Shown here: piece after piece, positions 1 through 45,802 of the stretch
Position numbering within the stretch: position 1 is the stretch's first letter
Layout: each line of letters begins with the position of its first letter
Assembly (NCBI GenBank): GCA_023667315.1
Contig: JAMPAI010000005.1
Location: forward strand, 1 to 64,000
Length of the DNA stretch: 64,000 nucleotides
Direction of reading: 5' to 3'
Origin: Ruminococcus flavefaciens
GTDB taxonomy: Bacteria > Bacteroidota > Bacteroidia > Bacteroidales > P3
Made by a program: the position numbers and the translations under genes
The notes under the pieces: model-generated
Database searches by the model: none
Told to the model about the DNA's origin: nothing
The model's input: the letters and a program-made list of their open reading frames with translations, nothing else

Positions 1-71
1 AAACAAAAACAGTTAAACAGCCCCTAATGTGTCAACCTTTTTCAGGGAAAGTCACATTCGGGCTCCAAAAC

Positions 72-155
72 TTGCAAAAAGTTGCAAAATCAGCATGAAA
101 CAACCTGCAAAAAGTTGTAAATTTGCCATTGAAAAACCCGCAAAAAGTTGCAATA
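72..155 (+). repeat. Three 18-bp direct repeats, 33-bp period, upstream of ATPase gene
   Basis: Three near-identical copies sit at 72-89, 105-122 and 138-155, with core GCAAAAAGTTGCAA (GTTGTAA in the second). Corresponding bases are exactly 33 bp apart. Copy 1 contains two self-complementary TTGCAA half-sites whose starts are 10 bp apart, one helical turn. The last copy abuts the ATG at 155. The arrangement looks like a phased operator or iteron array for a DNA-binding protein, possibly autoregulating the ATPase. The function is inferred; the repeats and the phasing are seen directly. Confidence 0.85.
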
Positions 156-1564
156 TGCTTGAACGGAAGATATTTAAAAAACTCAACGACTGGCGAATAT
201 CAAAAAAAAAGAAAGCCCTGCTTGTAAAAGGCGCCCGACAAGTCGGTAAAACAACCAGTATCCGCGCATTCGGCAAAAAGCACTACAAGCATTACATCGA
301 AATCAACTTCGAGAAGACCCCTTCGGCACGGGAGGCCTTTGCCGGCGATTTGGACGCTAAAACAATAATCCTCAACCTGTCGGCCATGGGCTACGGCCCC
401 TTTGAGAAAGGGAATACGCTCGTATTCTTCGATGAAATCCAGAGTTGCCCCGCCGCCCGCACCGCCATCAAGTTTTTGGTAGAAGACGGAGCCTACGACT
501 ATATAGAATCTGGTTCGCTACTGGGTATCAACTATAAAGAAGTATCCTCCTATCCTGTCGGCTTTGAAGAACAGGTGGAGATGTACCCACTTGACTTCGA
601 GGAGTTCTTATGGGCTAACGGCGTTTCGCCCGACGTCATCGCGCGGCTTCGAACAGCCTATGAACGCCTTATTCCCTTGCCCGACTTTCTACACGAGCAG
701 ATGATGGGCCATTTCCGCCGCTTTCTGATTGTAGGCGGGATGCCGGAAGCTGTCATGGCCTTTCTGTCGAATAATGATTTGGAGAGAACCCGCCGCGTGC
801 AGGCAGCGATACTGGACGGCTACCGCAACGACATCGCCAAATACGCCGGCAGTGAACAGCATTTAGCCAAGCAGGTGTTCGACGCCATTCCCGAGCAACT
901 CTGCAAAAAAGACAAGCGTTTCGTATTGGCCACTCTGGAGAAGGGTGCCTCGCAACGCAAGTTCGGCGATGCCACGCAGTGGTTGGCCGATGCAGGTATA
1001 GCCTATTTCTCTTTCAATGTCAGCGCTTTCGAACTCCCGTTTTCATTCTCGGAGAAGCGAAATCTATACAAACTCTTTATGCTCGACACGGGTCTGTTGA
1101 GCCACATGAGCCTGAAAGACATCCAATTTCCCGTTCTCAACGGCGAGATAGACATCAACGAAGGGGCGCTGACCGAAAATTTTGTAGCCGTGGAATTGGT
1201 CAAGCATGGCATATCGTTGAACTACTACGACAAGAAAAGTCGTCAGGAACTCGATTTCATCTTTCCCGAGCGGAACCGCATCTCGGTTATCGAAGTCAAG
1301 TCGGGCAACAGCTACACACGCCACGCCTCTCTGAACGCCATCCGCACCGCCTACCCCGACCGCATCCACCGCTCCATAGTGCTGAGCAAGTATAACGTTT
1401 TCGTTAAGCCAAATGAGCCATCGAAAACTTGTTTTCAAGATGGCCATGGCGAGAAAACGGGCGCGAAAGCGAATATCCGCCATGACGAAGCGTTTGGCAG
1501 TGATGCCCCCCACCGCACGGATGAAGTGGTATATTACCCCCTGTATATGGTGATGTTTGTGTAG
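155..1564 (+). CDS. AAA family ATPase with DUF4143 C-terminal domain
   Basis: A 469-residue protein of the widespread but poorly characterised AAA_14/DUF4143 ATPase family. Near the N-terminus VKGARQVGKTTS is the P-loop, and FFDEIQSCP is the Walker B motif. The C-terminal part carries the nuclease-like DUF4143 pattern (LDFIFPERN...SVIEVKSG), resembling a PD-(D/E)XK fold with D, E and K conserved. The frame stays open upstream to 29, but those extra 42 codons are made of the AKSCK-encoding repeats, so MLERKIFKKL at 155 is the better start. About 40 residues (roughly 1406-1525) separate KYNVFV from the terminal VVYYPLYMVMFV, a junction that is normally short in this family as I recall it. Substrate and biological role are unknown. 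Confidence 0.85.
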   Translation: MLERKIFKKLNDWRISKKKKALLVKGARQVGKTTSIRAFGKKHYKHYIEINFEKTPSAREAFAGDLDAKTIILNLSAMGYGPFEKGNTLVFFDEIQSCPAARTAIKFLVEDGAYDYIESGSLLGINYKEVSSYPVGFEEQVEMYPLDFEEFLWANGVSPDVIARLRTAYERLIPLPDFLHEQMMGHFRRFLIVGGMPEAVMAFLSNNDLERTRRVQAAILDGYRNDIAKYAGSEQHLAKQVFDAIPEQLCKKDKRFVLATLEKGASQRKFGDATQWLADAGIAYFSFNVSAFELPFSFSEKRNLYKLFMLDTGLLSHMSLKDIQFPVLNGEIDINEGALTENFVAVELVKHGISLNYYDKKSRQELDFIFPERNRISVIEVKSGNSYTRHASLNAIRTAYPDRIHRSIVLSKYNVFVKPNEPSKTCFQDGHGEKTGAKANIRHDEAFGSDAPHRTDEVVYYPLYMVMFV

Positions 1565-45655: not shown

Positions 45656-45802
45656 GCTCCGCCCAAAATACTCCGCCTCGGCAAAAACAAATGAATTTGT
45701 TTTTGCTCTCGACTTATTCGTGATTTTTGGCTCCGCCCAAAATACTCCGCCTCGGCAAAAACAAATGAATTTGTTTTTGCTCTCGACTTATTCGTATTTT
45801 TG
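45656..45802. repeat. Tandem duplication of a 74-bp promoter-bearing unit
   Basis: Two copies (45656-45729 and 45730-45802) are identical except for one extra G in the first copy near its end. Each holds a 26-nt palindrome (12-bp arms GCAAAAACAAAT, 2-nt spacer) followed by TCTCGACTTATTCGT. This, with the small broken ORF, fills the 418-bp space between the PfpI and nitroreductase genes; 45608-45655 shows nothing else. Confidence 0.9.
45770..45802 (+). promoter_or_regulatory. Promoter of the nitroreductase gene
   Basis: TTTG (45770-45773) lies in the right arm of the palindrome; after 21 nt comes TATTTTTG (45795-45802), 39 bp before the start codon. In the first repeat copy the inserted G spoils the -7 box (GATTTTTG). 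Confidence 0.55.

Follow-up and report, generated by a model that had tools for sequence, protein, structure and literature searches.

What is the role of a short array of direct repeats that runs up to the start codon of an ATPase gene? The question is raised by the first bases of the window, which is the whole 64,000-nucleotide stretch of a Ruminococcus flavefaciens contig analysed here. A first-pass annotation had described three repeats with an exact 33-bp period that meet the start codon of a DUF4143 ATPase gene. The repeat search, TRF and shuffling all support this array, with copies of 24 bp. The array and the gene that follows it are made up of these features:

67..156, + strand: array of three head-to-tail copies with a 33-bp period (repeat search, TRF, pattern count)
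67..90, + strand: copy 1, sequence AAAACTTGCAAAAAGTTGCAAAAT (repeat search)
100..123, + strand: copy 2 (repeat search)
133..156, + strand: copy 3, which overlaps the ATG at 155 (repeat search)
155..1564, + strand: AAA_14-DUF4143 ATPase gene with a PADLOC PDC-S01 match (domain and model search; start placed from the RKI motif)
890..1009, + strand: presumed winged-helix region, residues 246-285 (fold inferred from sequence)
1175..1300, + strand: predicted PD-(D/E)XK-like nuclease motif, E341, E365/D367 and E380/K382 (alignment)

Both spacings between the three 24-bp units are 33 bp, and copies 2 and 3 are 83% and 88% identical to copy 1, respectively. TRF called the same array at 67-153 with a period of 33. 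The repeat unit in the window is TGCAAAAAGTTG. Matches to TGCAAAAAGTTGCAA with up to 2 mismatches occur 3 times in the 64-kb window, all inside the array; the chance expectation is 0.18 in 64 kb and 0 of 100 shuffles reached 3. Two details of the original description held in part. The pair of TTGCAA half-sites is present in copy 1 (starts at 72 and 82, 10 bp between starts), but it is not general, because in 60 arrays of the 33-bp class the units show no excess of palindromy over shuffles; palindromic units were rejected for this class on the same grounds. The copies had also been placed on one face of the helix, and this is nearly the case: since 33 bp is about 3.1 helical turns, they lie near one face and not exactly on it. 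Elsewhere in the window, at 45656-45802, there is a 74-bp tandem repeat of two copies with 98% matches.

The domain scan of the window covered two genes, the ATPase and a DUF4209 gene. In the ATPase, Pfam detected AAA_14 (E 3.7e-28, 98.5 bits, cut-off 27) and DUF4143 (E 1.1e-26, 93.9 bits, cut-off 28.1). ATG 155 is taken as the true start because the RKI motif directly after it is common to 52 aligned relatives, with R4 invariant. All 52 aligned proteins, the window ATPase included, keep the key residues of Walker A, Walker B and the PD-(D/E)XK-like motif unchanged. Our reading of the acidic and lysine residues listed above is a PD-(D/E)XK-like nuclease motif, and nuclease activity is predicted. 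A sequence search of the PDB matched the ATPase through its P-loop only, to midasin (best E 3.2e-8) and HslU (E 0.089), and the nuclease part gave a marginal match to a UPF0102 protein (E 0.025). Against PADLOC, the window ATPase matched PDLC04792 (E 2.9e-148), and together with eight relatives that were scanned it matches PDC-S01 models in every case.

The window array is one case of a far wider rule among DUF4143 ATPase genes. Among the matches listed, 60 of 81 related genomes have a match to the ATPase. The 90 best-scoring of the matches listed from these 81 genomes were examined for lagged self-similarity in up to 200 bp upstream, measured against dinucleotide shuffles (a partial match, G007:C9, was left out). 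The upstream array was significant in 75 of 90 genes at p<0.01 and in 81 at p<0.05, which leaves 15 and 9 genes above the respective thresholds. In 71 of the 75 significant arrays the lag was 32-34 bp, with 33 the most frequent (56). Tandem repeats as a general trait of promoters were rejected by the controls, in which p<0.01 was reached by 1 of 90 gene-internal regions, 1 of 37 regions upstream of other genes (the 37 window genes only) and 7 of 83 regions downstream of the same genes. Clustering of the 87 proteins above 300 aa (60% single linkage) gives 33 clusters, and 26 of these have an array with a period of 31-35. Among 19 named orthologues, 12 were significant at p<0.01 with lags of 31-33, and 17 at p<=0.05; two of the 19, L124 and L125, share their contigs with L008 and L009 from the set of 90, and the partial L142 was left out of a set of 20 loci. 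These counts bear out the earlier suggestion that Bacteroidales DUF4143 ATPases have a conserved operator-like array in front of them, and the check proposed with it, a search for repeats upstream of homologues, recovered comparable arrays in 75 of 90 genes. A chain of copies, 2-7 in number, short and imperfect, is present in 112 of 120 loci. Their 229 spacings, searched in the range 30-36, are distributed as 33 (179), 32 (34), 34 (14), 31 (1) and 35 (1). One locus, L082, has an array downstream only, with about six period-33 copies that begin inside the 3' end of the gene, and none upstream.

What the arrays have in common is their period and position; the unit sequence is private to each gene. 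The proposal of GCAAAAAGTTGCAA as a shared motif was therefore dropped, as the sequence varies from gene to gene. The unit is TATTGAAAAGTGTAA in L025, TTCGGTCGGAAAAATGTA in L063, CGGATTTTGTGAAA in L045 and AAATTTTACGGAGAGCCGA in L068. Median unit similarity is 8.0 for proteins that are 60-85% alike, 4.5 at 50-60% and 1.1 at 40-50%. Units within one genome are no more different than units between genomes (p 0.74), so among paralogues there is no sign of selection for orthogonality.

Other DUF4143 subfamilies have other periods. The subfamily of L182, a locus in the window's own genome, carries 23-bp arrays in 18 of 21 loci and in 12 of 13 further ones, 30 of 34 in all (p<0.01). The 13 were chosen from the better remaining matches; L204 and the eight low-scoring loci L209-L216 were left out. 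All lags in this class are 23 or 46, and 82 of 85 spacings are 23 (range 20-26). In a third subfamily (L116 type) a period of 39-41 bp was found in 6 of 10 loci, and among 20 more distant loci 6 were significant, 4 of these at 41-42 bp. Units of the 40-bp class (L217-L226) look palindromic, unlike those of the 33-bp class, in the three examples seen; palindromic units would suggest dimers, not head-to-tail subunits. In the nine proteins scanned against PADLOC the best sub-model tracks the period class: the 33-bp type (six genes) scores best with 04786 or 04792, the 23-bp type (two genes) with 04790, and the L116 type with 04787.

Arrays are also found on plasmids. From 60 matches listed, 13 plasmid-borne homologues were chosen to span taxa, and 8 of them have a lag of 32-33 at p<0.01. 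These come from Collinsella, Agathobacter, Fusobacterium animalis, Vibrio coralliilyticus, Acinetobacter towneri, Criblamydia, Parabacteroides and Segatella, which represent six phyla (Actinomycetota, Bacillota, Fusobacteriota, Pseudomonadota, Chlamydiota and Bacteroidota). The Glaesserella homologue has lag 33 at p 0.015, the best lags in Vescimonas and Ruminococcus are 42 and 24, and among the 13 no array was found in F. vincentii and Rhizobium. Six more plasmid homologues, one close and five distant, were likewise chosen to span taxa from 40 matches listed. Bacteroides uniformis and Prosthecochloris have lag 23 (p 0.005), as does Mycobacterium riyadhense (p 0.02), and no 23-bp array was found in the other three, Thermus, Moraxella and Azotobacter. 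The Thermus DUF4143 gene TT_P0211 is reported to rise 6.6-fold with a plasmid, only if Argonaute is present (PMC4406477). It was not counted as evidence because of this dependence on Argonaute, and a Thermus homologue, L247, is without an array.

Repeats that reach a start codon might encode an N-terminal protein extension, and an open frame spelling KSC repeats does exist in the window and in some orthologues. Across the family only 16 of 87 arrays leave the frame of the ATG open from end to end. The spacing is not a multiple of 3 in 23 of 87, spacings of 32, 34 and 23 bp break the frame, and two stops interrupt the extension of L010, an 88% orthologue. Since the reading frame is mostly closed, the array is not coding. 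The frames and stops speak against conservation at the protein level and uphold the array as a non-coding element, as first proposed; a coding extension is rejected and we give it practically no credence.

The position of the arrays points to the promoter. The Bacteroidota -7 promoter consensus is TAnnTTTG, and the window has one candidate within the array:

118..125, + strand: TAAATTTG, a match to TAnnTTTG that overlaps copy 2, putative promoter box by the consensus (window sequence)

Such a putative box occurs no more than 110 bp from the start in 73 of 81 Bacteroidota arrays, where shuffles predict 6.9, and in 67 of 81 it is inside the array span. The 73 box-bearing loci hold 243 copies; 57 begin downstream of the box, the other 186 at it or upstream. 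The downstream copies, and the abutment of window copy 3 on the start codon, are what would be expected if the repeats acted in RNA, as a leader or a translational operator. Copies at or upstream of the box would be absent from a transcript that starts there; this concerns the 186, and in 33 of the 73 loci (e.g., L011 and L012) it concerns every copy. An action in RNA is on these counts very improbable.

Which protein reads the array was approached by co-variation. For each sliding window along the protein, sequence identity was correlated with array similarity after the remainder of the protein had been partialled out. Of 120 loci, 74 combined a clear array near the start with a complete protein, and 60 remained after removal of proteins at least 85% alike. 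For these 60 genes of the 33-bp class, co-variation is strongest over residues 261-280 of the presumed winged-helix, where the partial r is 0.291. The null maxima had a mean of 0.107 and a highest value of 0.206, and 0 of 300 permutations reached 0.291, in a null from which phylogeny was not removed. The best single columns are S266, followed by K254, A238, L152, G264 and E262. The peak persists for pairs below 50% and below 42% identity, and as a control the 33 bp of DNA just upstream of the array give at most 0.075. There is a second, weaker peak at residues 131-160, in or beside the AAA domain. In the 23-bp class (29 proteins) peaks are found at 71-100 and 191-230, with 0.294 vs a highest null of 0.292, and in these 29 proteins co-variation is not localised to the presumed recognition helix. 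The core GCAAAAAGTTG has 3 matches outside the array in the window's own genome vs 3 for a reversed-pattern control, so no trans targets are evident there.

The best co-variation in the 33-bp class being with the presumed winged-helix, the array is probably read by the ATPase that it precedes. The peaks of the 23-bp class fall off the presumed recognition helix, which would suit a different reader, either a host regulator or the product of a neighbour. Such a protein would have to travel with each gene: the units differ by gene, they follow the winged-helix region of the ATPase in the 33-bp class, and array and gene co-occur in many genomes of six phyla. A separate reader is for these reasons unlikely.

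Most simply, the ATPase-nuclease would be autoregulated and would cover its own promoter. We consider it likely, though well short of certain, that the array is a private operator of the ATPase gene, one that the ATPase would bind so as to repress that gene. We infer binding, an oligomer, repression and activation by derepression on invasion. The ATPase would bind the array head to tail through its winged-helix, with one protein unit per 33-bp repeat. The repeat sequence would serve as the address of each gene, and the period as a ruler set by contacts between neighbouring subunits of the subfamily (33, 23 or about 40 bp). The window array lies over the likely promoter, so a bound protein would silence its own gene. 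Upon invasion repression would be lost, and the ATPase-nuclease would be turned on. The fixed period of each subfamily predicts the geometry of the DNA-bound oligomer.

A second element lies in front of the array. The window begins at base 1 of its contig, and its bases 1-54 recur at other contig ends of its own genome:

1..54, + strand: right end of a multi-copy element, taken as an insertion sequence, 12 bp upstream of copy 1 (recurrence)

The element end has 18 matches in its own genome, of which 8 are exact right ends, 9 are left-end variants and L111 is neither. Arrays of different DUF4143 ATPases adjoin 5 of the 8 right ends, and such a gene adjoins 1 of the 9 left ends. The gap between the element end and the first core at those 5 right ends is 18, 19, 20, 20 and 31 bases. 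In G001 all three right ends, and none of the three left ends, are beside arrays or genes of the DUF4143 ATPase kind. These right ends lie directly upstream of arrays, for the most part some 20 bp short of the first core, as if the element preferred the arrays as landing sites. The family's other genomes gave loci at 24 of 26 places, 23 with enough flank; 9 of these 23 precede genes that resemble AAA_14 ATPases by eye and 14 do not. Two of the 9, L162 and L176, look broken. No transposase frame was found beside the ends in L162, L168 and L177, so some ends may be remnants, and in L157, from another genome, an rve-domain transposase is beside a related end.

Right ends upstream of arrays are seen at window 1-54 and in L098, L100, L102, L103, L104, L116, L118 and L119. 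The gene that a right end faces in L099 looks, by eye, like an AbiEi-type antitoxin. IstB/IS21 was rejected as the identity of the insertion sequence: its 3 own-genome matches, one barely above the cut-off, are in long AAA-type frames, and the same search was positive in 13 of 14 control genomes.

Alternatively, the array might be a cut or recombination site of the ATPase-nuclease, and array and gene together a small cassette able to move or be excised. Invariance of the PD-(D/E)XK-like residues in the 52 proteins would fit such an activity. In L068 (G008) the same units are found on both sides of the ATPase gene, L083 too has units on both sides, and the homologous place in the window's own genome (L182, G000:C33) is a single unit without such a gene, as if the gene had been excised or never inserted there. 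An empty place of this kind fits ordinary recombination between repeats too. Second arrays are few: 4 of the 7 significant downstream regions (of 83) have lag 33, and among those the upstream unit recurs only in L068 and L083. A cassette also leaves the promoter overlap unexplained, and we regard it as quite unlikely.

The private operator remains our preferred reading, and it may be extended. In this extension the array would be a sensor on which the ATPase-nuclease is parked, silent and self-limiting. Invading DNA or a phage process would strip or titrate the protein, which would both derepress the gene and free active nuclease. Each genome would hold its own array-ATPase pairs, with a ruler for each subfamily, and the arrays would double as landing sites of the insertion sequence. 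This is a tentative proposal, possible but on present grounds rather doubtful.

Several known systems resemble the arrays. CRISPR arrays consist of a repeat and a variable spacer with a near-constant period, as is also seen here. The arrays described here differ in having 2-7 short imperfect copies with a gene-specific unit atop a promoter box, and the three 24-bp copies in the window are 83-88% alike, below the near-identity of CRISPR repeats. The iterons of plasmid and phage replication initiators are head-to-tail direct repeats of fixed period over the promoter of the binding protein. Head-to-tail order, a fixed period and overlap with the putative promoter of the gene recur here, but the present arrays are mostly in whole genomes with many paralogues and belong to an AAA-type ATPase with a nuclease motif. 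Since the window's own genome has at least 16 ATPase matches among those listed, a replication iteron is unlikely. Autoregulated toxin-antitoxin operators likewise have repeats over their own promoter and many paralogues per genome. They differ from the present case, in which there is a single gene, no antitoxin was seen in the window and the period is fixed by subfamily.

A search of titles and beginnings of abstracts (bioRxiv, most subscription journals and the PDC-defining paper being outside its coverage) gave no account of these arrays. In the main text of PMC12988326 and in PMC13356809, both on PDC-S01, a word search gave no mention of tandem or direct repeats, a promoter, an operator or autoregulation. 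PDC-S01, whose models the window gene and its eight scanned relatives match, is described as an ATPase fused to a PD-(D/E)XK member and as the fourth commonest prokaryotic defence system, with 29,494 bacterial and 9,986 archaeal instances; most such PDC candidates still await validation (PMC12988326). The DUF4143 ATPase family is very common, and its antiviral role is suspected. The array before most copies examined provides a candidate DNA substrate for the PDC-S01 ATPase. Such arrays allow proteins and DNA to be paired by sequence alone, and they offer a route to how PDC-S01 genes are turned on. If the sensor proposal were true, it would give a general design for a defence candidate that ranks among the most abundant.
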